Assembly: GCA_016217965.1 (NCBI GenBank)
Contig: JACRFI010000007.1
Coordinates: 1-37,814, forward strand
Direction of reading: 5' to 3'
Source: Candidatus Kaiserbacteria bacterium
GTDB lineage: Bacteria; Patescibacteriota; Minisyncoccia; Phycocordibacterales; UBA2100
DNA length: 37,814 nucleotides
Part shown: positions 1,872 to 37,814 of the stretch, piece by piece
How positions within the stretch are numbered: position 1 is the stretch's first letter
Layout: each line of letters starts with the position of its first letter
Made by a program: the position numbers and the translations under genes
The notes under the pieces: model-generated
Seen by the model: the letters and a program-made list of their open reading frames with translations, nothing else
Told to the model about the DNA's origin: nothing
Database searches by the model: none

Positions 1872-2768
1872 ATGAGTCATATATTGGTTGCACCCGCAGG
1901 ATATAGGCGAGCGATGTCCTTTGCGGCAGCGCTTCTCCTTTCGCTCATGCTCGCAGGTCCAGCAGAGGCAAGCGGATCTTACGATTACTCGTATCCGTAC
2001 GATTACGGCTACAACAATAATTACTACTCGCAAGGAACGTACGGCGGTACCTACGATGGTAGTTACTACAATAATTATTACGGAGACAATTATTTCAACG
2101 GCTATTACGACTACAATACCAGCGGATACTACGACAATTACCATGGAGGCTACGGCTACGGCCGCCGCCCGACGTGCTCGATGACGCTTACGTACGATAC
2201 GAATAACAGCACGCACTACTACAATTCGTACATGCATTCTCCCGCGACACTGACGTGGACAACGTGGAATGCGACAAGCGGGACTATTTCGCCAGATGTT
2301 GGTTCAGTAGGCCGCAGCGGCTCGCGAACCGTATATCCGTACGGGCAGCAAACGTACACGATGACAGTCTATGGGCAAGGTGGTTCGAACACGTGCCAAG
2401 TGACGGCAGTGTCTCCGTACATCTCGAACTACTTCAATCAGTATCCGTATTATTACAATACGAGTAATTTCAACTACTCGTATCCGTACAACTACGGCAG
2501 TTACTATAACTACACATACCCAACTTCGTACACGTATCCTACGTACACGCCAGCCTACACGTACCCTGCGACGAGTTACATCGCGCTCGATAAGGTGCCG
2601 TACACCGGAGATGGATTTGGGCCTCTTGGCACGATGCTCGCCTGGTTCTCTGTGGCGCTCGCAGCGGGTATCGGCGCGACATATCTAGGCCTTCGTCTCG
2701 GTTTGGGGCAGAAAATTCTGGCACCTGTCCTTCGAAGCCTTGGCGTAGGAGGAAGAGTTCGCGGTTAG
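1872..2768 (+). CDS. Secreted Tyr/Asn-rich surface protein with one Ig-like module and PYTG anchor
   Basis: 298 aa from ATG 1872, chosen because ATGAGTCATATATT there resembles the ATGAGCCATTATTT start of the preceding paralogue; an in-frame ATG at 1830 would add 14 residues. The signal peptide (RRAMSFAAALLLSLMLAGPAEA) precedes a Tyr/Asn/Gly/Asp-rich region (YNNNYYSQGTYGG style), one Ig-like module (RPTCSMTLTY to GQGGSNTC) nearly identical in plan to the middle module of the upstream gene, a second Tyr/Pro/Thr-rich stretch, then LDKVPYTGDGFGPLGT, a membrane segment and a basic tail. The stop overlaps the thrS stop on the other strand by 3 nt. The trio probably arose by duplication and repeat shuffling. 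No sortase gene lies in the window. Confidence 0.82.
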   Translation: MSHILVAPAGYRRAMSFAAALLLSLMLAGPAEASGSYDYSYPYDYGYNNNYYSQGTYGGTYDGSYYNNYYGDNYFNGYYDYNTSGYYDNYHGGYGYGRRPTCSMTLTYDTNNSTHYYNSYMHSPATLTWTTWNATSGTISPDVGSVGRSGSRTVYPYGQQTYTMTVYGQGGSNTCQVTAVSPYISNYFNQYPYYYNTSNFNYSYPYNYGSYYNYTYPTSYTYPTYTPAYTYPATSYIALDKVPYTGDGFGPLGTMLAWFSVALAAGIGATYLGLRLGLGQKILAPVLRSLGVGGRVRG

Positions 2769-4078
2769 CGGCGCTCTTTTATCTCCGCGGAAATCGCGGA
2801 TAGAAAATCGGCAATTGGAATTGCCGCCTGCTTTCCGTCGCCTGCCCCGTTAGAGGCTGGTCGCTCTCTAATGGGGTCACGACGTTCAACAGTGACGGTT
2901 TGTGCTGCAACTTCTTGGTCGCCGACGACAAGGAGATAGGGGATTTTCTCAGTCTTTCCGTTGCGCACTTTCTTGCCCAGCGTTTCGTTTGATGCGTCTA
3001 CTTCGACGCGGACTCCTGCATTGCGAAGTAACGTTGAAATCTCATTGGCGTATGCGACATGCTTTTCCGATACCGGAAGGACTCGTACTTGCTGGGGCGA
3101 GAGCCAAAGGGGGAACGCGCCCGCATATTTCTCGATGAGGAATGCCATGATGCGCTCGATGGCACCGATAGATGAACGGTGCACAACGAACGCGCGTTTT
3201 TGAGAACCATCGGAAGCTGTGTAGGTGAGGTCAAACCTATCAGGCATGCAAAAATCGTACTGCACCGTGAACGCAGTATCTTCCTTCCCGTTCACGTTCT
3301 TCATCTGGACGTCAATTTTTGGCCCGTAGAATGCCGCCTCATCTTTTGCTTCGACGAACGTTCCACTACGCTTCTCAAGCACTTCTTTGAGGAGTCTTTC
3401 TCCCTTTTCCCACGCGGCATCATTCTTGTAATATTTCTCGGTGTTTGTGGGGTCACCGAGCGAAAGTCGATAGTGGTAGTCATTTCCATACGAGAGCCCA
3501 AATATACTCGCGACATATTCGATGAGGTCGAGTGCGCTTGATATCTCATCGGCCGCTTGCTCTTCTGAAGCGCAGACGATGTGTGCATCTGCGAGACAGA
3601 ATGTGCGTACACGCTGGAGGCCCATCAGCTCTCCTGATTGTTCATAACGGTAGAGCTGCGCCAATTCCGCGATGCGCATAGGGAGGTCGCGATAGCTACG
3701 TGGCTTCGACAGGTACAATTCAAAGTGATGCGGACAGGTCATCGGGCGGAGCATGAATTCCTCCTCGTCGATCTGTATTGGCGCATACATTGAATCCTTG
3801 TAGTGCGGGTAATGCCCGCTTTTTTTGTAGAGGTCCAATTTCGCGATGTCGGGCGTTTTTACATGTTGGTACCCGCGTTTTATCTCTTCATCAATGACGA
3901 AACGTTCGAGTTCGCGGTAGATGGCAGCACCCTTCACGGTGAAAAGGGGAAGGCCTTTTCCGACTGTGTCGGAAAACGTAAAGAGGTCAAGCTCTTTGCC
4001 CAACTTCTTATGGTCTCTCTCATTCATCCCATTAGAAGCGTTACCGTTTTTGGGTTCTTCAGGTTTTGTAGTGTTCAT
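2765..4078 (-). CDS. thrS: Threonyl-tRNA synthetase, short form without TGS and editing domains
   Basis: 437 aa; the usual bacterial enzyme is about 640 aa. The protein starts almost directly at the class II catalytic core (KELDLFTFSDTVGKGLPLFTVKG) and continues to the anticodon-binding domain (VRVLPVSEKHVAYANEI). Family Zn ligands are present: Cys115 in RPMTCPHH, His166 in LADAHIVC and His300 in VVHRSSIG. The N-terminal TGS and Ser-tRNA(Thr) editing domains are missing, so proofreading would need a separate protein. An acidic/Asn-rich 20-residue leader precedes the core. ATG 4078 has no Shine-Dalgarno. A T-box leader lies immediately upstream, which independently supports the threonine assignment. 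A palindromic repeat is embedded near the 3' end and encodes DPIRERPASNGAG. Confidence 0.95.
   Translation of the reverse strand: MNTTKPEEPKNGNASNGMNERDHKKLGKELDLFTFSDTVGKGLPLFTVKGAAIYRELERFVIDEEIKRGYQHVKTPDIAKLDLYKKSGHYPHYKDSMYAPIQIDEEEFMLRPMTCPHHFELYLSKPRSYRDLPMRIAELAQLYRYEQSGELMGLQRVRTFCLADAHIVCASEEQAADEISSALDLIEYVASIFGLSYGNDYHYRLSLGDPTNTEKYYKNDAAWEKGERLLKEVLEKRSGTFVEAKDEAAFYGPKIDVQMKNVNGKEDTAFTVQYDFCMPDRFDLTYTASDGSQKRAFVVHRSSIGAIERIMAFLIEKYAGAFPLWLSPQQVRVLPVSEKHVAYANEISTLLRNAGVRVEVDASNETLGKKVRNGKTEKIPYLLVVGDQEVAAQTVTVERRDPIRERPASNGAGDGKQAAIPIADFLSAISAEIKERR
2841..2878. repeat. REP-like palindrome inside thrS coding sequence
   Basis: CCTGCCCCGTTAGAGGC (2841-2857) and GCTCTCTAATGGGGTC (2863-2878) form an imperfect inverted repeat. 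The same two half-sites, in the opposite orientation, occur upstream of dnaG at 27434-27469. Here the element is read through as codons near the thrS C-terminus. Confidence 0.75.
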
Positions 4079-4125
4079 ACGGTATGAAATTTATGTCATT
4101 ATTGGTTGGCTTCTAACGGGACAGG
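4028..4125. repeat. Split half-sites of the same palindrome flanking the thrS start codon
   Basis: CCCATTAGAAGC (4028-4039) and GCTTCTAACGGGACAGG (4109-4125) match the half-sites of the REP-like palindrome but lie about 70 bp apart. In thrS mRNA, CCCGTTAGAAGC could pair with GCTTCTAATGGG (12 bp, one G-U), enclosing the ATG at 4078. Confidence 0.5.
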
Positions 4126-4160
4126 TCTCTGTTCTGCCATAATCTAAAATTTATGTAATT

Positions 4161-4209
4161 AAAAACGCCCGAGCGAATGCACGATCTTCATCGTGAACTC
4201 GCTAGGGCG
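4161..4209 (-). terminator. Intrinsic terminator of the thrS T-box
   Basis: On the minus strand CGCCC-AGCGA-CACGAT pairs with ATCGTG-TCGCT-GGGCG around a GAAG loop and is followed by TTTTT. It shares GCGCCCTAGC-side bases with the antiterminator, so the two folds exclude each other, as in transcriptional T-boxes. Confidence 0.88.
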
Positions 4210-4345
4210 ATCTCGTGTCGCGGTTCCACCTAGCTTTATGCCTTTCGGCATCTCTCTTTCTTCAGATTAGTCCGCCAATTTGGCGGATTCGCCTGCGCGA
4301 TTTCGGTTGGTAGCCGAAACAATCTCTGGTTTCCCAATACTACTA
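4161..4345 (-). promoter_or_regulatory. T-box riboswitch leader of thrS
   Basis: Read on the minus strand. The diagnostic T-box core AGGTGGAACCGCG is at 4231-4219, containing TGGA, which would pair with a tRNA 3' end UCCA. It lies in an antiterminator (4234-4201) closed by GCTAGG/CCTAGC with an inner GCG/CGC helix. A stem-III-like hairpin ATGCC-GAAA-GGCAT precedes it (4251-4238), and a competing intrinsic terminator follows. The 5' part holds AGATT/AATCT closing pairs and hairpins TTTCGG/CCGAAA and TCCGCCAA/TTGGCGGA. Threonine codons ACC (in loop CTACCAA) and ACT (in GGACTAATCT) are candidate specifiers; I cannot decide between them. Stem I seems short because the dnaE stop lies at 4343-4345, unless transcription starts inside dnaE. 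Confidence 0.88.
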
Positions 4346-7300
4346 AAGGGCTTTTACTCTGTCTACCACGAAACTCGATTCGCCGTTCCTGCTAGAGAAT
4401 TTTCCTTTGAGCATGACGCATGAGCCAGGTGTGAAAAGAGCCTCGTTTTCTTTGAGGGTACGGGGAAAAGCGACGATCTCGATCGAGCCCGAATAATCCG
4501 CGAGCTTAGCGAACATCATCCGCTCGCCGTTTTTTGTCAGTATCGGTTGCACGGTTTCCAGAAAGCCGGCGATGACCGTCTCGACTCCGTGTGGGAATTT
4601 TTCTTTCGCTTCTTTGAGGCTTATCTTCTGCCTTGATAATTTTTCTTTGTGTTTATCCAGCGGGTGTCCGGATACGTAAAAGCCGAGGAGCTCTTTTTCC
4701 CACGCAAGGCGCTGTTCCATTGTTGCAGGTCCGTGCTCCTTTAGCGGAAGTTCTCGAGAGATAGCCGAGCTTGCCCCGAAAAGCGAATCCTGGCCTTCCG
4801 GCGCGCTCATGCTTTCGCGGTGGTACGCGAGAAGTATTTCAATATTCCCAAGAAGTGTGGCGCGTTCGCCGTATTCATCGAGCGCGCCGGACATGATGAG
4901 CGCTTCGAGGGATTTCTTGTTGAGGTTCTTGTCGTGAATGCGGATAAGAAAATCTGTGATGCTTTCGTAGCGTCCGTTTGCCTCGCGCTCCGTGATGATG
5001 GAATCTGCGACGCCAGTGCCGAAATTCTTTATGGAATAAAGCCCAAAGCGGATTGCTTGCCCTGAGGGATTCGAAGGGTCGGGAACAACCGTGAATGTGC
5101 CTCGGCTCTCATTTACCGATGGCGGCAGTATCGTGAGTCCCATGCGCGAGCATTCTGCGACGACCTCTGCAATTTTCTCGACGTCGCCCGCATCGGCGGT
5201 GAGGACCGCCGCCATGTAATCCACTGGATAATTTGCTTTCATGTATGCGGTCTTGTACGCGAGGTTGCCGTAGCTTGCTGCGTGTGAATTGTGGACAAAA
5301 ATACCATTTGCGACAAAATTAGATGGACCAGGCACAGTGAGATCATACGTCATTTCCTCTCCATCAGGCTCGATAGTGACCACTTCATCCCAGAAAATAT
5401 CAGACCGTGCGTACTGGCGCAGTAATGACGAGTCGAGGGCATCGGCGATTCGTGTCAGTACTGAGCGCGTGTATCCTTTCTTCCGAGCATCGTATCCAAG
5501 CGTTCTTTCAGATACGTGCGCCATTTTTACTACCGACGAAATTGAGAACCCGCTTCTTACAAGTTCTCTTCGTATGTGCGTAAATATTGGTGCGGGAACA
5601 GTATCTGCCGTTCCGCGGCCACGATTATTACTGCGTACCGTGGAGTTCTTTGTGACTGCCTCGGCTGCATCTCTTTTTGTCCCGATCAAATGCTTGCCGA
5701 TCGCATTCATGAATGAAGTTAAATTCTCGCTCCCATGGATATGCACTGTCCATCCTGGCCTCAAAGAATCACGATATTTAAATTGCTTTGCATGGATCGT
5801 GCTGACAATGCCAAAACGTAAGAGCAGGTGCTGGAGGTCATCCGAAAGGCGGCGAGAACTTGTCGCATAGTAGAAAAGTTGATTCTTTACATCTGCGCAT
5901 CCATCGCCTTGCCACATTTTGCCTAGAAGAATTGCAAGCGAGTGGTTATCGGCTTGGAAAATCGCATCGGGTATGAATTTTTCTGTAGCTATTTTGTTTG
6001 CTAAACCAAGTTCTGACAGCCACACTCGAAGTGAGTTGCCTTTCTTTTGGTCAATTTGTCCGACGTATACGCTTGTGGCCGGTTTATTGCGATTTATGCT
6101 GATTTTTGTATTCGAAAATTGTGAGGCTGCCGCAATAAAATCGCGAATTTCATCTTCTTGCGTTGAATAAAAATACACTCCGTGAGGATGGCAAAGATTT
6201 CCTTCTGCGATCAGGTACCCAAGGGCTGCGGCTTTGTATGAAGCCAGCGGCCGTGCATTTTTGGGTTGAGGCAGGCGGCGAGGCGCAGCGATGCGCATCC
6301 CCGGCTGCAATTTTTCGAGCGGTGTCCATCCGTCAAATGTTCTGAAGGGGTGATTGTCTGTCGAACGGATCGTCCTTCCTGAACGCGTGCGCAACTTGTA
6401 CACTTGCTTAATGCCATTCTCGAATGGAGCGGAGGATTCTGTCGACGTAATCCGCATTCTTTTATCCAGAGCATACACGGTAGTTTTGAGTCTGTTGTCG
6501 TACATTGTGCGAAGAGGTTGAGAAACACCCGTTTCCGAATCATAAATTCGAGTGTCTCCGGCTAAGCATTTGTTGAAGCCATACGCTGCGAATGTCTCGA
6601 TCTGTTGCCACAATTTCTCTGCGGCATCTTCCCGCATTCCACCCTCTATTGCACCCTTCATCAGTTTTTCTTTCTGCGCCGCCATCTCTTTGGGGATCTT
6701 TTTGCCGATGGCTTTCCTTAGCTTGTCTGCTTCAAGCCATGAGTATCCGGCGAGCTGGATGGCTATCTCGAGGACGTCATCTTGGTACGTGATGACACCA
6801 TAGCTATTCTTGAGGATGGGCTCCATTCGGGGGTCAAGGTACTTTACGAGTTTTGGGTTGTGTTTGCGTTCGATGTACGCCGGAATGAATCCCATAGGGC
6901 CAGGGCGGTACAAGGCAACCATTGCGTTGATGTCGTGGATGGAGGAGGGCTTGAGGTCAATAAGATAGTTCGTCATCCCGCCTCCCGCGAGCTGGAAGAC
7001 ACCCAGTGTTTCTCCACGAGATAGCATTTCATACGTCGCCTTGTCTTCGAGCGATATCTTGTCGAGATCCACGTGGACGCCAAGCCGCTCGCGTACTCGC
7101 GTGACGGAATCGGCGAGGACCGACAGGTTGGTGAGCCCAAGAAAGTCGAATTTAAGAAGGCCTGCCTCTTCGACCGCGTGCATGTCGTACTGGGTGATTG
7201 TCTTGCCGCCCTTGGGGTCGCGTTGGATGGGCACAAAATCAGTGACAGCGGAAGGCGCGATGACGACACCTGCCGCATGCACGCCCACGTGCCGCGCGTT

Positions 7301-8800
7301 GCCTTCTATTTTGCGCGCGAGATCGAGGATCTCGCGCGCATCCGCATCTTTTTTGTACGCATCTTTCAATTCCGGTGTGCTCTCCAACGAACTATCTATT
7401 GTCACCGGGAATCCTTGTTTCCCGAACGGTATCATTTTCGCAATTTTGTCACCGGTTCCATATGAATGCCCAAGCGCGCGTGCGACATCGCGCACTGCCG
7501 CACGTGCCATCATCGTCCCGAACGTGCCTATCTGAGCGACATGTGTTTCGCCATATTTCTGCCGCACGTAATCAATGAGTTGGTCGCGACGGTTGTCTGC
7601 GAGGTCCATATCGATATCCGGAGGCGACGGTCTCTCAGGATTGAGAAAGCGTTCGAAGGGAAGGTTGTATTCAATTGGGTTTACCGTCGTGATGCCGCAC
7701 AGGTACGAGACGAGGGAACCTGCTGCTGAACCTCGCGTGTTTGTATAGATGCCCACGTCGCGTGCGTGGCGCAGGAGGTCTGCGACGACGAGAAAGTACG
7801 GCGAGTATCCTTTTTTTGCGATGATTGAAAGTTCATATTCGACACGCTCGATGAGAGCCGTTGTTTGCGGCAGGTTTCGAACCGAAAAGCCTGCGAATGC
7901 GAGCTCTCGCAACTCTTTGTCATGCGTGGAATCCTTTGAAACAGGAAAATCGGGGAAGACCCACGTTCCCAGTTTCAATTCGAGTTCGCACATGTCGGCG
8001 ATGCGCTTTGAATTCTCGAGCGCTTCCGGTAAGTCTTTGAACAGTTCTCCCGCGCGAGCTTGCGAAATGAATGAAAAATCATATGCGTTCTCTTCGAACT
8101 CACGGTTCAAGACGCGCCCTGTCCGTATGTTATTCACAAGCTCGCGCGCGAGCGCGTCACGCTTGTCGAGGTAATAGACTTCATGCGATGCGACAAGGGG
8201 AATCCCGGCCTCTCTCGCGCTTGAGACTATTTGCTTGCCTATCTTTTCATGTTCCTCAATTTCTGGGTGCCTTGTCACTTCCGCAAAACAGTTAGCGCCG
8301 AATACGTTTTTGTAAAATGCCAAAAGTTCCGCGGACTTTTCTTTGGACCCATCTTTCAGTGCTCTCGCATGCTCACCAGAGAATGCTGGCAGAATAGCAA
8401 TGAGCCCCTCTCGATTTGCTTCCATAAGCTCGTGGTCTATGCGCGGGCGATAGTAGAAGCCTTCTAGATGAGATTTCGTCACGAGTTGTATCAGGTTCCG
8501 ATATCCTGTCTCATTCTTCGCGAGAAGCACGAGGCGGGAATGCCGGTCGTCCACACGGTGTTCTTTGTCGTGGCGGGTCCGGGGGGAAACGAAAAAATCG
8601 ACGCCGATAATTGGCTTGATGCCGTGCTCTTTGCATTCCTTATAGAAATCTATGGCGGCGTACATGTTGCCGTTATCGGTGAGCGCGAGAGCACCTTGGC
8701 CGTCTTTTTTCGCCGCGGCGACCAATTCTGGGATCTTTGGCAGTGCCTCAAGGAGAGAGAAGTGACTGTGGGTGTGTAGATGTACAAACTCTGCTTTCAT
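4343..8800 (-). CDS. dnaE: DNA polymerase III alpha subunit, interrupted by an intein
   Basis: 1485 aa precursor; about 1058 aa after removal of the 427-aa intein, close to normal DnaE length. The N-terminal PHP domain begins FVHLHTHSHFSLLEA. The polymerase active site has PDIDMDLADNRRDQ (two Asp as in DxD of the C-family) and LLKFDFLGLTNLSVL. The intein sits in the conserved YGFNK/SHAASYGN motif. The C-terminal OB-fold is visible (VIAGFLETVQPILTKNGERM). It replicates the chromosome. ATG 8800 is supported by alignment of the PHP start; no Shine-Dalgarno is present, and translation is probably coupled to a mini-ORF whose TGA overlaps the ATG (ATGA). The thrS T-box follows immediately downstream on the same strand. 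Confidence 0.97.
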   Translation of the reverse strand: MKAEFVHLHTHSHFSLLEALPKIPELVAAAKKDGQGALALTDNGNMYAAIDFYKECKEHGIKPIIGVDFFVSPRTRHDKEHRVDDRHSRLVLLAKNETGYRNLIQLVTKSHLEGFYYRPRIDHELMEANREGLIAILPAFSGEHARALKDGSKEKSAELLAFYKNVFGANCFAEVTRHPEIEEHEKIGKQIVSSAREAGIPLVASHEVYYLDKRDALARELVNNIRTGRVLNREFEENAYDFSFISQARAGELFKDLPEALENSKRIADMCELELKLGTWVFPDFPVSKDSTHDKELRELAFAGFSVRNLPQTTALIERVEYELSIIAKKGYSPYFLVVADLLRHARDVGIYTNTRGSAAGSLVSYLCGITTVNPIEYNLPFERFLNPERPSPPDIDMDLADNRRDQLIDYVRQKYGETHVAQIGTFGTMMARAAVRDVARALGHSYGTGDKIAKMIPFGKQGFPVTIDSSLESTPELKDAYKKDADAREILDLARKIEGNARHVGVHAAGVVIAPSAVTDFVPIQRDPKGGKTITQYDMHAVEEAGLLKFDFLGLTNLSVLADSVTRVRERLGVHVDLDKISLEDKATYEMLSRGETLGVFQLAGGGMTNYLIDLKPSSIHDINAMVALYRPGPMGFIPAYIERKHNPKLVKYLDPRMEPILKNSYGVITYQDDVLEIAIQLAGYSWLEADKLRKAIGKKIPKEMAAQKEKLMKGAIEGGMREDAAEKLWQQIETFAAYGFNKCLAGDTRIYDSETGVSQPLRTMYDNRLKTTVYALDKRMRITSTESSAPFENGIKQVYKLRTRSGRTIRSTDNHPFRTFDGWTPLEKLQPGMRIAAPRRLPQPKNARPLASYKAAALGYLIAEGNLCHPHGVYFYSTQEDEIRDFIAAASQFSNTKISINRNKPATSVYVGQIDQKKGNSLRVWLSELGLANKIATEKFIPDAIFQADNHSLAILLGKMWQGDGCADVKNQLFYYATSSRRLSDDLQHLLLRFGIVSTIHAKQFKYRDSLRPGWTVHIHGSENLTSFMNAIGKHLIGTKRDAAEAVTKNSTVRSNNRGRGTADTVPAPIFTHIRRELVRSGFSISSVVKMAHVSERTLGYDARKKGYTRSVLTRIADALDSSLLRQYARSDIFWDEVVTIEPDGEEMTYDLTVPGPSNFVANGIFVHNSHAASYGNLAYKTAYMKANYPVDYMAAVLTADAGDVEKIAEVVAECSRMGLTILPPSVNESRGTFTVVPDPSNPSGQAIRFGLYSIKNFGTGVADSIITEREANGRYESITDFLIRIHDKNLNKKSLEALIMSGALDEYGERATLLGNIEILLAYHRESMSAPEGQDSLFGASSAISRELPLKEHGPATMEQRLAWEKELLGFYVSGHPLDKHKEKLSRQKISLKEAKEKFPHGVETVIAGFLETVQPILTKNGERMMFAKLADYSGSIEIVAFPRTLKENEALFTPGSCVMLKGKFSSRNGESSFVVDRVKAL
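5288..6568 (-). mobile_element. DnaE intein with LAGLIDADG homing endonuclease and HTH-like insert
   Basis: 427 residues (745-1171 of the precursor), from Cys in FNK/CLAGDTRI to Asn in IFVHN/SHA. All splicing blocks are visible: A (CLAGDTRIYD), B (STDNHPFRT), F (TYDLTVPGPSNFVANG), G (FVHN followed by Ser+1). Two LAGLIDADG motifs are seen: ALGYLIAEGN and LLGKMWQGDG. Between the endonuclease and block F is a helix-turn-helix-like stretch (FSISSVVKMAHVSERTLG). The insertion point is three residues downstream of the cyanobacterial split DnaE intein site (Y/CFNK). The acidic residues of both endonuclease motifs are kept (E and D), so activity is possible. Confidence 0.95.
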
Positions 8801-8889
8801 AATGAAATATTCCGGTGCACCCCAGTACCACAGCGCTGCGCACTGGCTACGGGGCAGGCGAAAGAAGCCTTATCCGCACGCGTGGACAT
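8797..8889 (-). CDS. 30-codon leaderless mini-ORF overlapping the dnaE start
   Basis: ATG at 8889 reads MSTRADKASFACPVASAQRC then GTGVHRNISL and stops at TGA 8797-8799, sharing ATGA with the dnaE start. An extended -10 box TGCTATACT lies 6 nt before this ATG, so the mRNA should start at or next to it. This implies that ribosomes load on the mini-ORF and reinitiate at dnaE. The peptide has two Cys and no recognised domain; the arrangement argues more for a coupling device than for a functional peptide. Inference from position, not shown experimentally. Confidence 0.55.
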   Translation of the reverse strand: MSTRADKASFACPVASAQRCGTGVHRNISL

Positions 8890-8895
8890 GGGAAA

Positions 8896-8904
8896 AGTAT
8901 AGCA
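8896..8904 (-). promoter_or_regulatory. Extended -10 promoter of dnaE transcript
   Basis: Minus strand TGC-TATACT, last base 6 nt from the mini-ORF ATG. No convincing -35, as expected for an extended -10. Confidence 0.6.
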
Positions 8905-8981
8905 GAGCGTAATCCCCACCATTTTTTGCGTTGTTCTTTGGAGCTGCTAGCATTAAGGTATTACTGATAATTCAGATTCGT

Positions 8982-9389
8982 ATGTCGCGTAACCGAATGG
9001 AAGTTCCTGAAGCTCCAGATCCTCAAGTGATCAAGGAACGTGAAGATGCAAAGGAGGCGATGAAAGCGTGGAAAGAAGATGTGGAGCAGCAGTTCGCAGA
9101 AGAAATTAAAGCAAAAAAAGGCAGTGTCGTACTGTCTGCGGATGGGGACATACTGGATGTCCTGACCCAATCCGGTCATTTTCGGATAGTCTATAATCCA
9201 AAGGATAATGCCGAGAGGCCATACCAACAATACGCGTTTCAATCAAAAGACGATTTTTATGACAAGGAGACGAATCCTTCTGAAATGCCGCGTTATGTGA
9301 ATCTTTCTAAAGAATCTGTCGGCAAATTAATATACAATCTGAAAGAGTGGCTGGAAGCACAGGAGAGGCCCGAGAAGACAGTTGAGTAA
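8982..9389 (+). CDS. Hypothetical small charged protein
   Basis: 135 aa from ATG 8982 (MSRNRMEVPEAPDPQVIKER). An upstream in-frame ATG at 8931 would add 17 hydrophobic residues that overlap the likely promoter (GATAAT at 8966-8971). The N-terminal third is a charged helix (KEAMKAWKEDVEQQFAEEIK), followed by a mixed alpha/beta part (GSVVLSADGDILDVL, FRIVYNPKDNAERPYQQYAF). No Cys, no membrane segment. I do not recognise the family. It ends 6 nt before rnhB and is probably cotranscribed with it. Confidence 0.7.
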   Translation: MSRNRMEVPEAPDPQVIKEREDAKEAMKAWKEDVEQQFAEEIKAKKGSVVLSADGDILDVLTQSGHFRIVYNPKDNAERPYQQYAFQSKDDFYDKETNPSEMPRYVNLSKESVGKLIYNLKEWLEAQERPEKTVE

Positions 9390-9395
9390 TTTGCG

Positions 9396-10010
9396 ATGTC
9401 TAACTTTTTTATTGGCATCGACGAAGCGGGGCGGGGAGCTCTCGCGGGGCCTGTGTGCGTGGGCGCGGTGTTGTACCCAGAGGATTTCGACTGGAAGGAG
9501 GTCTTCAGCTTGATAACGAAAAAGGGAAAGCCGAAATTACGAGACTCGAAGCAGCTTACCGCGCAGCAGAGGGACATTTTGTATGAATACATTGCGGCCC
9601 ACGGTAGATTGCGCCATGCAAGCGCGTTCGTGGATGCATCGACAATAGATTCTATTGGTATTGTAAATGCTGCACATGAAGCGGCTGCGGTGGCGATATC
9701 TGAGCTTGGTATCGGTCCGGCGCGCGTACAGGTTCTCCTGGATGCCGGGCTTCGTGTCCCCTCGAAATGGGACCAACAGTCGTTTGTCCGCGGAGACGAA
9801 CGCATTCCCGCCATCTCGTTCGCGTCCATTGTTGCCAAAGTTACGCGCGATAGGCACATGGAAGAGCTCTCTCTGGCGTATGCCGGCTACGGTTTCGAGC
9901 ACAACAAGGGATATGGCACCAACGGGCATTTCGAGGCTATACGGAAACTCGGCGTGCATGCGATCCACAGGACATACTTTTTGCGACGCTACCAGGTAAG
10001 TATCAAATAA
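9396..10010 (+). CDS. rnhB: Ribonuclease HII
   Basis: 204 aa, normal family length. It cleaves the RNA strand of RNA-DNA hybrids and removes misincorporated ribonucleotides. Motifs: FIGIDEAGRGALAGPV with catalytic Asp9-Glu10, LRDSKQL, LLDAGLRVP (Asp116), VRGDERIPAISFASIVAKVTRD. Start ATG 9396 places IDEAGRG at the usual distance from the N-terminus. It lies 6 nt downstream of the preceding small gene without a Shine-Dalgarno. Confidence 0.97.
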   Translation: MSNFFIGIDEAGRGALAGPVCVGAVLYPEDFDWKEVFSLITKKGKPKLRDSKQLTAQQRDILYEYIAAHGRLRHASAFVDASTIDSIGIVNAAHEAAAVAISELGIGPARVQVLLDAGLRVPSKWDQQSFVRGDERIPAISFASIVAKVTRDRHMEELSLAYAGYGFEHNKGYGTNGHFEAIRKLGVHAIHRTYFLRRYQVSIK

Positions 10011-10042
10011 GTATTTACCTCTTAATTCCAATCAGATTCCTT

Positions 10043-10070
10043 TTGATACTTGGAACTTGATACTTGATAC
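10043..10070 (+). repeat. 28-nt module of four heptamers (TTGATAC type)
   Basis: TTGATAC, TTGGAAC, TTGATAC, TTGATAC in exact tandem register. The third unit supplies the -35 box of the rpmF promoter. Confidence 0.8.
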
Positions 10071-10085
10071 TTTCCGCGCTATATT
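10057..10085 (+). promoter_or_regulatory. Leaderless promoter of rpmF
   Basis: TTGATA (10057-10062), 17-nt spacer, TATATT (10080-10085), then 7 nt to ATG 10093. The transcription start should fall at or next to the A of ATG. Confidence 0.75.
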
Positions 10086-10092
10086 GCGGGCA

Positions 10093-10371
10093 ATGGTAGT
10101 CCGAATGCGGGTGAACCGCTCAAAGACAGGAAAACGCCGAAGCCACCACGCACTGGTGGCAGCCTCGCTCGCAGTATGCGAATGTGGCGCGCCGCGCGTC
10201 AGCCATAGGGCATGCGCCGAGTGCGGCAAATACAACGGAAAGGTTGTCATTGATGTCGTCGCCAGGGCAAAAAGGGAGGCGCGACGCGACAAGAAGAAGC
10301 AAAAAGAGCTTCGAGCTGCCGGCCAAGAGAAAGACACTACTAATTCTAAAGAAGAAGCAAAAACCACGTAA
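10093..10371 (+). CDS. rpmF: Ribosomal protein bL32
   Basis: 92 aa from ATG 10093 (MVVRMRVNRSKTGKRRSHHA). The RRSHHAL motif and a CxC...CxxC zinc ribbon (CECGAPRVSHRACAECGKY) identify bL32. A longer reading from 10057 is rejected because it would begin inside the promoter. The C-terminus carries an extra Lys/Arg/Glu-rich tail (REARRDKKKQKELRAAGQEK) compared with the usual ~57-60 aa protein. Leaderless by promoter geometry. Confidence 0.93.
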   Translation: MVVRMRVNRSKTGKRRSHHALVAASLAVCECGAPRVSHRACAECGKYNGKVVIDVVARAKREARRDKKKQKELRAAGQEKDTTNSKEEAKTT

Positions 10372-10387
10372 TCTTCATTTGTTTCCG

Positions 10388-10417
10388 TTTACGCTTGTTC
10401 TTTATCCGCCATATGAT
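10388..10417 (+). promoter_or_regulatory. Possible nusB promoter
   Basis: TTTACG (10388-10393), 18-nt spacer, TATGAT (10412-10417). The predicted transcript would begin within the heptamer module that forms the 5' leader. Confidence 0.4.
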
Positions 10418-10421
10418 TCTA

Positions 10422-10449
10422 GAAGCTAGAAGCTAGTACCTAGAAGCTA
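10422..10449 (+). repeat. 28-nt heptamer module upstream of nusB
   Basis: GAAGCTA, GAAGCTA, GTACCTA, GAAGCTA. It ends exactly 6 nt before the nusB ATG, the same offset as the modules before smc and khpA. Confidence 0.85.
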
Positions 10450-10455
10450 TCTGTT

Positions 10456-11367
10456 ATGGCAAATCGCCACCTTGCTCGTTCGGTTGTCCTTCAGGTCCTG
10501 TTTGAGAAGGACCAACAAAAAGGCGCGATGAGCCTTGTCGACGCGGAAGGACGTCTCGTTGATTATTCTCGCGAATTCGGCGCGCGCGACAGCGATCTTT
10601 CTTTTATGAAAGGACTCCTTCAGACAGCGGTAGCGAAACAGAAGGAAATAGACAAAGTCATCGAAACTGCGGCGCCAGAGTGGCCGATAGATAAGATAGC
10701 AGCGATAGATAGGAACGTGCTTCGGCTCGGACTCACTGAACTCCTCTACTCAGACCGCTCCCAAGTCCCGGCGAAAGTCGCCATCAACGAGGCCATCGAG
10801 CTCGCGAAGCAATTCGGAAGCGCTTCCTCGGGCCGTTTTGTGAACGGTGTTCTTGGAGCCGTATACGTCGAGCTCGGCGAGCCAGGAAAAGGCGAAGGCA
10901 ATACCAGGAAGAAAGACATTGATCCAGGAAAAATACCGGTGCAGCATCTTGCGGGAGCTGTCGTGTATGCAAAGCATCAAGGCGATACGTACCTTGCATT
11001 CGTGCACGACATTTTTGGGCACTGGACCATCTCAAAGGGAAAGATAGAAGATGGCGAGGACGTGGAGTCCGGGGCAAAGCGCGAGATTCGCGAAGAGCTT
11101 GGTGTTGATGTCGAAATACGTGAAGAGCTCGGCGTGAACGAATACATCGCCAACGACCCGGAAATAAAAGGCGGAAAGAAGAGGAAACGTGTCACGTACT
11201 TCCTCGCGGAAGCGCCATTCTCGGAGTTGCGGCTGGGCTCGTCCGGCGGCTTGGACGATGCGCAATGGTTCCCGCTCTCGCAGGTCGGAAGTCTTAATTT
11301 TTACGACGATACGCTCAAGATAATAATACCGGCGATAAATTTGCTTGCTAAGAAGGCAAGCAAATAA
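10456..11367 (+). CDS. nusB: NusB antitermination factor fused to a Nudix hydrolase
   Basis: 303 aa, one uninterrupted frame. Residues 1-140 are NusB (ARSVVLQVLFEKDQQKGA; IDKIAAIDRNVLRLGLTELL; VAINEAIELAKQFGSASSGRFVNGVL in parts), the rRNA transcription antitermination factor. A short Lys/Gly linker (about 141-163) leads to a Nudix domain (about 164-300) with a complete Nudix box: G195, E201, R209-E210 and EELGV, matching GX5EX7REUXEEXGU. Start ATG 10456 fits the NusB N-terminus. NusB is normally a stand-alone protein of about 140 aa; the fusion suggests linkage of rRNA transcription with hydrolysis of a nucleotide, but the substrate cannot be read from the sequence. Confidence 0.93.
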   Translation: MANRHLARSVVLQVLFEKDQQKGAMSLVDAEGRLVDYSREFGARDSDLSFMKGLLQTAVAKQKEIDKVIETAAPEWPIDKIAAIDRNVLRLGLTELLYSDRSQVPAKVAINEAIELAKQFGSASSGRFVNGVLGAVYVELGEPGKGEGNTRKKDIDPGKIPVQHLAGAVVYAKHQGDTYLAFVHDIFGHWTISKGKIEDGEDVESGAKREIREELGVDVEIREELGVNEYIANDPEIKGGKKRKRVTYFLAEAPFSELRLGSSGGLDDAQWFPLSQVGSLNFYDDTLKIIIPAINLLAKKASK

Positions 11368-33609: not shown

Positions 33610-33625
33610 TTTGTGTACCCACTAT

Positions 33626-34279
33626 ATGAATCCAGAAGCAATCAGGGCATTTCTCGAGTTTTTCGAACCCAAAAAGGGGCGAACGGTTGTTATTATCGAT
33701 TTCGCGAATGTTGATAAATGGGAGAATACTCTCCATTGGAAGGTTGGGATACAAGAGTTGGCCCGTTTGCTGAGACATTTTTCGGTTGGCTCCCAGGTCT
33801 TACGCCGTTTTTATTATGGAGCTGATTATGGTCCGTCGGAGAAATCTGAAACACTCACTCTTTGGTCAGGGGGTATTTTGCAGCGTGCGGGATATAACAG
33901 ATTTGAGGTCATAAAAAAGAGGGTCAAATATATCCACGATCCCCTTAGGCCTGCCGGTCAATACCAAAAGAAATGTGATTTTGACGTTGAAATGGCACTT
34001 GATTTGATAAAAATGCGAGACAACTATGACAATGTCATACTTTTCTCCGGCGACGGAGATTTAGTTTGCGCTTTTGATTACCTAAATAAAGAGTATGGAA
34101 AGACAGAATTTTTTGTCTTTGCTGCAAGAGGGCACATCGGCAAAGAGATTGTCGATGCAGAATCAAGTGGGTTGATAAAGAAAATACTTTACGCGGACGA
34201 TTTTGAGTACAGATTGAATCCTGACCATGGTCGTGGCGGAGGTGCGCATGCCACAGTCTTTAGGCCTCCGAGGCGGTAG
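33626..34279 (+). CDS. NYN/LabA-like PIN-fold protein, putative RNase
   Basis: 217 aa from ATG 33626 (MNPEAIRAFLEFFEPKKGRT); a TTG at 33611 is less likely. NYN-domain acidic motifs: VVIIDFANVDKWENT (Asp25, Asn28, Asp30), KKCDFDVEMALDLI and VILFSGDGDLVCAFDYL, the arrangement of metal-binding acids in PIN-like nucleases. The C-terminal tail is Arg/Gly/His-rich (NPDHGRGGGAHATVFRPPRR). Divergent from pcp. The substrate is unknown; RNA is the usual target in the superfamily. Confidence 0.88.
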   Translation: MNPEAIRAFLEFFEPKKGRTVVIIDFANVDKWENTLHWKVGIQELARLLRHFSVGSQVLRRFYYGADYGPSEKSETLTLWSGGILQRAGYNRFEVIKKRVKYIHDPLRPAGQYQKKCDFDVEMALDLIKMRDNYDNVILFSGDGDLVCAFDYLNKEYGKTEFFVFAARGHIGKEIVDAESSGLIKKILYADDFEYRLNPDHGRGGGAHATVFRPPRR

Positions 34280-34493: not shown

Positions 34494-34784
34494 TCAGAGG
34501 ATAGTGCATTCGAGCTTTACCACATCGCCATCGTCGATTCCTTCTTTCCGTCGGACAGACGATTTAATTGGTAGAACATATGGGCCTTCTTTTGTAGGGA
34601 ATAGGGAAGTGTCCCAGCTGGTTTTTCCGACCTTAATGCGCACTTTTATCGAACCGAATCCGCGCTGTTTCGGGCGTGGTAGAGCGCGCAGAGCTTTAGA
34701 TTCTTTGTCAGGAATATAGGCAAAAAACCACGCCGCGGGACCCTCCCATTTCCATACTTTTGCTTTGACAACAAAGCGCTTCAT
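34494..34784 (-). CDS. DUF1905-like small protein
   Basis: 96 aa from ATG 34784 (MKRFVVKAKVWKWEGPAAWF); much longer upstream readings cross the promoter and are rejected. Features of the DUF1905 beta-barrel family: W-x-x-EGPAAWFF near the start, GFGSIKVRIKVGKTSWDTSLF in parts, LPIKSSVRRKEGIDDGDVV. Function is not established for the family. The promoter TATACT lies 6 nt before the ATG, within one arm of a long inverted repeat. Confidence 0.85.
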   Translation of the reverse strand: MKRFVVKAKVWKWEGPAAWFFAYIPDKESKALRALPRPKQRGFGSIKVRIKVGKTSWDTSLFPTKEGPYVLPIKSSVRRKEGIDDGDVVKLECTIL

Positions 34785-34790
34785 ATGCCT

Positions 34791-34796
34791 AGTATA
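34791..34796 (-). promoter_or_regulatory. Leaderless -10 of the DUF1905-like gene
   Basis: Minus strand TATACT, ending 6 nt before ATG 34784. Confidence 0.6.
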
Positions 34797-34861
34797 CCCC
34801 GTGAGATAAATGGTATTTTTTCTCCCCGGGCTTAGGAGGGTGTATATCTCATGGGGTATAC
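34792..34861. repeat. 17-bp inverted repeat, possible operator, in the divergent intergenic region
   Basis: GTATACCCCGTGAGATA (34792-34808) and TATCTCATGGGGTATAC (34845-34861), one mismatch, 36-nt spacer. The left arm contains the -10 box of the DUF1905-like gene; the right arm lies upstream of the hydrogenase-like operon. A smaller hairpin CTCCC-TAGAC-GGGAG is at about 34884-34898. Confidence 0.65.
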
Positions 34862-34944
34862 GGGCAAAAAATATGGTGCACATCTCCCTAGACGGGAGGT
34901 CAGGACAGGAGTAGAGTATTCCCCATTTATAGCCGAATATCGAT

Positions 34945-35460
34945 ATGCTAAGGCTTTTGACGCAGATAATCCGCACGGGAAAGAAGACAGAAAAGGCGCC
35001 TTCAATAGACCCAATTGAAGTGGTCGGAGAGAACCTCCGGAAAACCATCCATACGCTCTATGGTGGTCGCTCACTCCGCATACGTCATGTGGATGCAGGT
35101 TCTACCAATGGTGAAGAATATGAGATGACAGCACTCGGGAATGCCTACTACGATGTTGAACGGTTCGGGCTTTCGTTCGTCGCATCGCCACGACACGCAG
35201 ATATTTTGACTGTTTCGGGTCCTGTGACGCGCAATATGGAACATGCGCTGAAGACTGCGTACGAGATGACACCAGAGCCGCGCATCGTTATTGCTGTCGG
35301 GGATGGGGCAATTGATGGCGGCATTTGGAAAGGCTCATATGCAGTTGTCGGGGGAGTGAAAGACGTGATCCCTGTTGATGCTGAAATTCCAGGAGATCCG
35401 CCTTCACCTGTCGACGTGTTAAAAGAATTCCTGAGGATACTGGAGGGGGCCAGGAAATAA
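34945..35460 (+). CDS. Group-4 hydrogenase / NuoB-type small subunit lacking all Fe-S cysteines
   Basis: 171 aa, HycG/HyfI/EchC-like. The family scaffold is clear: LRIRHVDAGSTNGEEYEM, NAYYDVERFGLSFVASPRHA, ILTVSGPVTRNM, EPRIVIAVGDGAIDGGIWKG and IPVDAEIPGDPPSPVDVL. In HycG the corresponding sites are CGGCNGCE, YGACG and PGCPP. Here they read AGSTNGEE (Ala51, Thr54, Glu57), VGDGA (Gly121) and PGDPP (Asp151); the protein contains no Cys at all, so the proximal/N2 [4Fe-4S] cluster cannot be bound in the normal way. The frame and motifs are otherwise intact, which argues against a decaying gene. It ends 3 nt before the HyfB-like gene. Confidence 0.88.
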   Translation: MLRLLTQIIRTGKKTEKAPSIDPIEVVGENLRKTIHTLYGGRSLRIRHVDAGSTNGEEYEMTALGNAYYDVERFGLSFVASPRHADILTVSGPVTRNMEHALKTAYEMTPEPRIVIAVGDGAIDGGIWKGSYAVVGGVKDVIPVDAEIPGDPPSPVDVLKEFLRILEGARK

Positions 35461-35463
35461 GAT

Positions 35464-37428
35464 ATGACGGAATCCCTTTTTATGCTCTCGTTCGTTTTTC
35501 CGGGTATCGCGGCGTTTGTCGCGCTCATATCGAGAAAAGGAGATATAGGGAACATTGCATCGCAGTCACTCTTTGCACTCGGCGGCCTCTGCGGCATCCT
35601 CGGAGCTGCTCTCTTTTACGCGAGTGGGGAAGCGGGAATAGCGGTTCTTGATGTTCCGCTTTTCGGCTTGGTAGTTGGGCGCTTGTCCGTTTTCTTTTTT
35701 GCCATTATTTCGGTGGGTGTTCTCCTCACGTCTTTGTATGCGATAGAGGGCCTTCGACCGTATAAAAATGCGTACTCGCTGCATTGGCTCGCCGTCGCCT
35801 CGGCGTTTTTCATTGTTGGCATGCAAGGAGTTGTTCTGGCCTCTTCAGTTGTCGGATTTCTTATTGCGTGGGAACTCATGTCTGTCGCTGCATATTTCCT
35901 CGTCATCGCAGATAGAAGCGATGATTCGCTCCAAGCGGGCTTGTTCTATTTCGTTATGACGCACATTGGTTTTGCGAGCCTCGTTGCCGGGTTCCTCGTT
36001 CTCTCTGGCGGAAATGCATTCGCCAACTGGCAACAAGTGGCACTCACAGCCTCTGCGCTCTCGCCCGCGGTGCTTGCCGCGGCGTTCGCGCTTCTTTTCG
36101 TCGGATTCGGTTCCAAGGCAGGCCTCGTGCCTCTGCATCAGTGGCTGCCGATGGCGCATCCGCAGGCGCCAAGCCACGCCTCTGCGCTCCTCTCCGGCGT
36201 CATGCTAAAAGTAGCCATTTTTGGATTTATCCAGTCACTGTTTCTTTTCCCCGCAATCCCTGCTTCGTGGGGCGCGGTAGTCCTTGTTGTGGGACTCTCG
36301 TCAGCGTTTTTCGGCGTGCTGCATGCGGTCGTCGAGAGCGATATCAAGCGTGTGCTCGCGTGGAGCAGCATAGAGAACATGGGCCTCATTTTCTCCGGCA
36401 TTGGGGCAGCGATGATTCTGCGCACGCTTCCTTTTGAAGCAGGGCCAGCTCTTGCATCCGCCATCGCCATCTTCATTGCGCTTCACATCGTGAACCACTT
36501 CCTTTTCAAAAGTGGGCTATTCATGGCAGCTGGCGCAATTGTTTCGAGCGTGCATTCGAGGGACATGGACGTGATGGGCGGGCTCGCGCAAAAATGGCCG
36601 CTATTTTCCGGCATCTTTCTTGCTCTCGCACTTTCCGCTGCGGCACTTCCTCCATTTGGCACGTTCTTCGGAGAATGGATGTATCTGCAGTCAGTCGCGC
36701 TGGCCTTGGTCGGACTTCCTCTTCCGTATTCAGTCGGCGCCGGGCTTGTCCTTGCCATCATCGCCGGTGTGAGCGGACTCGCCATATTTGCGTTCGTTAA
36801 AATGTTCTCAAGCGTATTTTTGGGAAGGGCGCGAGACGAAAGCGCGGAACATGTCCGACCTCTGCCATCTCTCGTGTTGCTTTCACCGGGTATCACAGCG
36901 TTCGCACTCGCTCTTTCGGGCGTTCTTGCATTTCCATTCTTCTCGGCCCGATTCATTTTAAATGAGAGCGTGTTCCAGCATGTTGCAATTGTGGAAGGCG
37001 CCTCAATCAATTCTTGGATTGTGTGGGGGCTCGTTGCGGGGCTCTTTGGCCTCGCATTCCTTTTCTCGCGCGCTATAGGTGCACGTATTCGGATCACGGA
37101 TACGTGGGATTGCGGGCAGCCGCTTACGCCGAGGATGCAGTACACGGCAACCGGATTTTCCGCACCCATCCGTTTTTTCTTTAGGTCATTCCTCGTATCA
37201 CGAAAAGAAATGTTGGTTGTCCCTATCTCGCCCGAGAATCCATGGATAGCGCGGCGCTCGCTTGATTGGATCGTCACTTCAGCATGGGAGCGGTTTTTGT
37301 ATCGTCCCATCACGAGCGGCATCCTGTACCTTGCCGGATATGCTCGAAAGTTGCAGAGCGGCGTCATCCAACTGTACCTTCTTCTCGTCGTGCTGACGCT
37401 CGTCGCTGCATTCATCTTCGCACTATAA
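35464..37428 (+). CDS. hyfB: HyfB/NuoL-type antiporter-like membrane subunit
   Basis: 654 aa, about 15 or more hydrophobic segments. Proton-pathway features of the Mrp/NuoL family are kept: a Glu in the membrane (VGFLIAWELMSVAAYF), a Lys in GFGSKAGLVPLHQWLPMAHP, and SHASALLSGVMLKVAIFGF. The C-terminal DTWDCGQPLTPRMQYTATGF motif is typical of the HycC/HyfB branch rather than of complex-I NuoL. ATG 35464 is 3 nt after the small-subunit stop, so the two are tightly coupled. It would translocate H+ or Na+ in a membrane-bound complex. Confidence 0.92.
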   Translation: MTESLFMLSFVFPGIAAFVALISRKGDIGNIASQSLFALGGLCGILGAALFYASGEAGIAVLDVPLFGLVVGRLSVFFFAIISVGVLLTSLYAIEGLRPYKNAYSLHWLAVASAFFIVGMQGVVLASSVVGFLIAWELMSVAAYFLVIADRSDDSLQAGLFYFVMTHIGFASLVAGFLVLSGGNAFANWQQVALTASALSPAVLAAAFALLFVGFGSKAGLVPLHQWLPMAHPQAPSHASALLSGVMLKVAIFGFIQSLFLFPAIPASWGAVVLVVGLSSAFFGVLHAVVESDIKRVLAWSSIENMGLIFSGIGAAMILRTLPFEAGPALASAIAIFIALHIVNHFLFKSGLFMAAGAIVSSVHSRDMDVMGGLAQKWPLFSGIFLALALSAAALPPFGTFFGEWMYLQSVALALVGLPLPYSVGAGLVLAIIAGVSGLAIFAFVKMFSSVFLGRARDESAEHVRPLPSLVLLSPGITAFALALSGVLAFPFFSARFILNESVFQHVAIVEGASINSWIVWGLVAGLFGLAFLFSRAIGARIRITDTWDCGQPLTPRMQYTATGFSAPIRFFFRSFLVSRKEMLVVPISPENPWIARRSLDWIVTSAWERFLYRPITSGILYLAGYARKLQSGVIQLYLLLVVLTLVAAFIFAL

Positions 37429-37557: not shown

Positions 37558-37814
37558 ATGACCTTCGCCCTCATTACATTTCAAACACTCCTTGTGCTCG
37601 CGGCGGCGCCTGCCGTTATCGGCATGATTCGGAAGATGAAGGCGCGATTCCAGAATAGGCAGGGCGCATCGATTTTCCTTCCGTATTGGTCGCTTCTCTC
37701 GCTCTTCAAAAAAGAAATGACCGTCACGCGGCATAGCTCGTGGGTGTTCCGCGTCGTGCCATTCGTCGTATTTGGAAGTGCGCTCTTTCTTGCGATAGCA
37801 ATACCAAGTTTTGC
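37558..37814 (+). CDS. hyfC: HyfC/HycD (NuoH-like) membrane subunit, 3' truncated by window end
   Basis: The first 85 residues are visible. A membrane helix (TFALITFQTLLVLAAAPAVI) is followed by the conserved cytoplasmic loop MIRKMKARFQNRQGASIFLP (K-x-R-x-Q-x-RQG of HycD/NuoH proteins), then YWSLLSLFKKEMTVTRHSSW and a second helix. NuoH-type subunits anchor the peripheral redox arm and link it to ion transfer. Operon order small subunit-HyfB-HyfC suggests more subunits downstream, outside the window. Confidence 0.88.
   Translation, partial: MTFALITFQTLLVLAAAPAVIGMIRKMKARFQNRQGASIFLPYWSLLSLFKKEMTVTRHSSWVFRVVPFVVFGSALFLAIAIPSF

Follow-up and report, generated by a model that had tools for sequence, protein, structure and literature searches.

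An Ehr operon of Candidatus Kaiserbacteria with the ligands of both the NiFe site and the small-subunit cluster replaced

The conversion of electron transfer into ion pumping is the defining feature of complex I and its relatives, and the occurrence among them of a small subunit without a single cysteine raises the question of what such a complex does and whether it still handles electrons. The subunit is encoded at 34945-35460 on the forward strand of the window, which is the whole stretch of DNA analysed and covers bases 1 to 37,814 of a contig of 119,058 bases. The gene starts with ATG and specifies a 171-residue Ehr (energy-converting-hydrogenase-related) small subunit of the NuoB/HycG/MbhJ type, matched by the Pfam family PF01058 (Oxidored_q6; 87.6 bits, where the cut-off is 27; E 7.2e-25). 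Alignment to MbhJ (6cfw_J, E 3.5e-27) and HycG (7z0s_G, E 2.9e-25) places T54, E57, G121 and D151 at the positions of Cys1 to Cys4. The original prediction of a cysteine-free protein with every Fe-S ligand replaced is borne out; its rendering of the first motif as Ala/Thr/Glu was right as to replacement and slightly loose as to the residues, the first two of those four being the CxxC positions. The scaffold around the ligand sites is invariant with or without the cysteines (e.g. G52, S53, N55, E58, G119 and D120), as are G125, G126, P152 and P153. An AlphaFold2 model of moderate confidence has its best matches in complex I PSST chains and MbhJ; its pLDDT is 60.8, with the poorest values in the cluster-site loops (residues 55-67 and 124-137), and the geometry was left uninterpreted.

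No second PF01058 match was found in the genome (0.98 Mb, 94% complete), which therefore holds no second, cysteine-bearing small subunit, a possibility that the prediction had raised against itself. It had likewise allowed for sequencing error, which was rejected because the same substitutions are found in close relatives from independent assemblies. More distant relatives keep the cysteines, indicating that the loss is derived.

The small-subunit gene opens a six-gene operon in the order small subunit, HyfB, HyfC, HyfE, HyfF and large subunit, which extends past the end of the window. More specifically, a HyfB-like antiporter-type membrane subunit of 654 residues is encoded at 35464-37428 and the 5' part of a HyfC/NuoH-like membrane subunit (314 residues in full) at 37558-37814, both on the forward strand. 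In the longer locus L002, where the window position equals the L002 position plus 33000, the HyfC-like gene spans 4558-5502 and is followed, outside the window, by a HyfE-like gene (5639-6304), a HyfF-like gene (6297-7769) and the gene for the large subunit, a NuoC-NuoD fusion like HycE (7778-9298). This gene order is common to most of the loci compared. Many members of the Moranbacteria-like branch (L012-L016, L063-L067) have a HyfC reading frame of about 530 residues, and no separate HyfE was found in them; similarity to HyfE inside this frame in L012, L013 and L015, together with its length, suggests a HyfC-HyfE fusion. Upstream of the operon, the window encodes an NYN-domain protein (33611-34279, forward strand; PF01936, E 2.2e-15) that was not found beside the operon in the other loci. 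A 184-residue reading frame on the reverse strand (34494-35048) overlaps the 5' end of the small-subunit gene and is probably a shorter gene beginning at an inner Met. Within the window's own clade, a search of the flanks revealed no other conserved partner gene beyond general neighbours common to close relatives.

The large subunit extends the pattern of ligand loss. All four NiFe ligands are gone, as the alignment with HycE puts S212/M215 and S500/G503 in place of the two CxxC pairs, and no HypD match was found in the genome; the complex is, as had been predicted, not a classical hydrogenase. Hydrogenase maturation removes a C-terminal extension from the large subunit, and this extension is absent here, the protein ending in SYSGTDL. 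For a model of the orthologous large subunit from the related locus L004, the first structural match is HycE (7z0s_E). The cavity motifs GPIH, GD and NKSxNxSYSGxD are near-invariant in Ehr complexes with N2 and in those without it, and any ligand bound in the large-subunit cavity thus appears to be independent of N2.

In the membrane arm, by residue numbers taken from motif positions, the antiporter-type TM5 Glu, TM7 Lys and TM12 Lys/Glu are kept in both HyfB (E137, K218, E404) and HyfF (E137, K226, E399), and K249 of the HyfB ion path is likewise kept. The HyfC motif DNPATHLELTMxHEAMxLEYSG, common to N2-bearing Ehr, is also retained. The HyfB and HyfF residues match those through which complex I translocates ions, and their retention counts in favour of the predicted transport by the window complex. 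In the HyfB of one Kaiserbacteria genome (L005, 7690-9687), a Lys replaces the otherwise conserved TM5 Glu (FWKVMS).

None of the cysteine-less Ehr operons, L002 included, contains a reading frame with a 4Fe-4S motif, and the operon that starts in the window encodes no ferredoxin-type subunit. The sole invariant cysteine in the five aligned subunits is C550 of HyfB, in the membrane arm, so that a hidden Fe-S cluster in these five is excluded. The loss of all known redox cofactor ligands, those of NiFe and N2 alike, is well supported; a flavin or other cofactor held without cysteine would escape such tests of ligand loss. HypD, COX1, H+-PPase, UbiA and cytochrome bd gave no match in the window genome; each was sought with a single Pfam family in this one genome, which is 94% complete, and controls were detected each time.

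The alternative that survives best is that the complex is still a redox enzyme, in which a soluble partner feeds the cavity directly and a flavin, quinone or thiol takes the place of N2 and NiFe. Fold and cavity are indeed kept, cysteines 465, 473 and 493 of the large subunit are common in the window's clade, and the wider, N2-bearing Ehr family is thought to be redox-active (PMC6349859). However, these cysteines are not invariant even inside that clade, the operon has no flavin or Fe-S subunit, and UbiA was not found in the genome. Redox activity of this kind is judged unlikely.

In two separate branches, Ehr genes are linked to F1Fo-ATP synthase. In ten loci (L012-L016, L063, L065, L066, L067 and L080) the Ehr genes lie 30-900 bases downstream of the F1Fo operon and on the same strand; these loci form one branch and may represent one event. 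A second linkage event, separate from that branch, is represented by L074, which belongs to the other CPR clade: its six Ehr genes (2553-10894) stand inside the ATP synthase operon, between atpG and atpD, and are separated from them by 19 and 30 bases. The L074 genome has a single atpB match and no other ATP synthase operon was found there; the Ehr small subunit of L074 reads D-A-D-D at the ligand positions. Within the class sample, atpB was detected in 18 of 19 genomes with strong Ehr matches versus 162 of 365 others, which include the weaker or complex-I-like matches G007, G037, G266 and G276 (Fisher p 1.2e-5, uncorrected for relatedness). Linkage is not universal, as the F1Fo operon of the window genome, which is complete, lies on a different contig; its c subunit exhibits no obvious Na+ signature and we take the enzyme to use H+.

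With every known metal centre gone, the ion-moving parts retained, and Ehr genes standing beside or inside the ATP synthase cluster in several lineages, ion movement without electron transfer is probable. The reading that we favour, at about even chances, is that of a six-subunit Ehr complex acting as a complex-I-like transporter of H+ or another cation, free of redox cofactors and operating on the same gradient as F1Fo. A more specific and more tentative proposal is that such a machine, functionally coupled to F1Fo, pumps or exchanges ions through chemistry at the former NiFe/quinone site that involves a non-redox ligand or protonation. In the favoured reading, the large-subunit cavity would either bind a ligand without redox function or serve as a protonation switch; the effect would be relayed via HyfC to HyfB and HyfF; and H+, or perhaps another cation, would cross the membrane without electron transfer. 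The complex might then serve as an Mrp-like antiporter or as a gated ion path on the proton gradient that F1Fo makes or uses, in a cell where no quinone prenyltransferase, oxidase or hydrogenase maturation was detected.

The same adjacency to, or insertion into, the atp operon and the same co-occurrence with atpB could also indicate a mainly structural or regulatory role for F1Fo in assembly, as a brake or in leak control, with little transport by the Ehr complex itself. Such a role would not need the ion-path residues to be kept, and most other loci, the window included, have F1Fo elsewhere or outside the stretch read; we regard it as rather improbable.

The distribution of the lost ligands among relatives bears on what may have replaced the cluster. 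The N2 cysteine set is lost, with none or one of the four left, in 37 related loci, nearly all of them CPR (each contig counted once, and another sequence being truncated). The ligand positions read (T/S/N)-E-(G/A)-(D/N) in the window's clade and mostly (D/T/S)-C-D-(D/N) in a second CPR clade, where the second cysteine is kept in ten sequences and a residual role for it is possible. As the replacements are mostly polar or acidic in both clades, another metal might be held by carboxylates (E57/D121, D151 and sometimes D54), either as a non-cysteine centre or as a structural metal. However, position 121 is Gly here, position 151 is sometimes Asn, and the variation among relatives leaves no constant ligand set; the model is also weak in just the two loops of the cluster site. 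A substitute metal is consequently judged improbable.

In a divergent Ehr-like operon of L088 (9659-16984), the small subunit reads D-A-D-N and lacks N2 ligands, but a ferredoxin-like stretch (CSFCGECAFKC) is fused to it and may offer electrons another route. Two further CPR loci, L078 and L079 (class family f24), encode a cysteine-bearing NuoB-type subunit (FGIACCSLEM) near ATP synthase genes and possibly represent a real complex I in CPR.

The order of the two losses can be read from sequences that retain one ligand set. L075 is the sole CPR copy with all four cysteines (CCCC), and its large subunit lacks the NiFe pairs. The pattern CCCC also occurs in 30 of 30 Pseudomonadota small subunits examined, and the adjoining large subunits (29 recovered) finish with N-x-SY-(S/A)-G at the place of the hydrogenase motif DPCxxC. 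Because L075 and the Pseudomonadota keep CCCC without NiFe ligands, the N2 loss is, on the sequences compared, a derived step that came after the NiFe loss, and it is seen only in CPR. The tree resolves into three groups: L075 falls in the second CPR clade, and the window's clade and the Pseudomonadota form the other two. This placement of L075 implies two N2 losses; a single loss was not rejected (AU test on a quick tree, p 0.22). Two of the four NiFe columns meant for exclusion from the alignment were off by one, which did not materially change the outcome.

Conservation within the operon argues against decay. Between the window genome and L004, identity is 88% for the small subunit and 70-79% for the other five. 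For the same pair, dN of the small subunit is 0.076 with dS saturated, as it is in all small-subunit comparisons, which precludes a precise dN/dS; for HyfB and HyfC the ratio is about 0.1. The small subunit is thus the most conserved part of the complex despite its loss of the cofactor, which is not what would be seen in a relic, and local decay was rejected, given also the agreement of independent genomes. That the whole complex is a decaying Ehr relic, as the disappearance of two cofactor-ligand sets and the patchy distribution (small-subunit profile matches in 23 of 384 class genomes and 17 of 380 phylum genomes) might suggest, is very improbable when the operon is intact in almost every locus of sufficient length, its proteins are strongly conserved against saturated dS, and it is kept in genomes of roughly 1 Mb.

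With regard to known systems, the window complex is of the Ehr type: a group 4-type large subunit without NiFe CxxC pairs is encoded in one operon with HyfB, HyfC, HyfE, HyfF and a small subunit. The four N2-type cysteines, usual in Ehr and perhaps not defining, are missing, which places the complex one step beyond other Ehr, as had been proposed. It has neither the CxxC pairs nor the HypD match expected of a group 4 [NiFe] hydrogenase. Respiratory complex I combines an N2 cluster with a NuoI-type Fe-S subunit that supplies a quinone site, whereas here the N2 ligands are lost, L002 has no 4Fe-4S-motif reading frame and no UbiA was detected. Ehr complexes without NiFe motifs, whose function is not known, have been described previously (PMC6349859, PMC10284858, PMC7894505, PMC10432482). 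Those of Geobacter, Nitrospira, Saganbacteria and Pseudomonadota resemble the window complex in their lost NiFe ligands and HyfB/C/E/F-type membrane subunits; those of Pseudomonadota differ in keeping the four N2 cysteines. The main text of Jaffe et al. 2020 (PMC7304191) describes a monophyletic CPR Ehr clade in the group 4 tree that lacks metal-cofactor-binding cysteines and is likely unable to interact with H2, and the window complex almost certainly belongs to this clade. That text addresses the large-subunit tree and metal cofactors and does not treat small-subunit cluster loss, intermediates or ATP synthase linkage; relative to it, the loss of the small-subunit cluster with its intermediates and the linkage to F1Fo-ATP synthase are new. 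No description of either was found in the open-access literature, which does not by itself prove novelty.

The best sequence and fold matches of the window subunits are in E. coli formate hydrogenlyase and hydrogenase 4 (HycE, HycG, HyfB-HyfF). Unlike these, the window complex has no NiFe site, Fe-S cluster or ferredoxin-type subunits, and its genome has no HypD. The findings bear on the management of the proton gradient in fermenting, probably host-dependent bacteria. Mrp Na+/H+ antiporters and DAB CO2-uptake systems contain NuoL-type membrane subunits that work without redox chemistry, and both lack the NuoB and NuoC/D-type soluble subunits. In the window complex, by contrast, these soluble subunits are strongly conserved, and a conserved member of the family without a recognisable redox centre would offer a natural test of whether, in the absence of electrons, a soluble cavity suffices to drive the membrane arm or to gate it.
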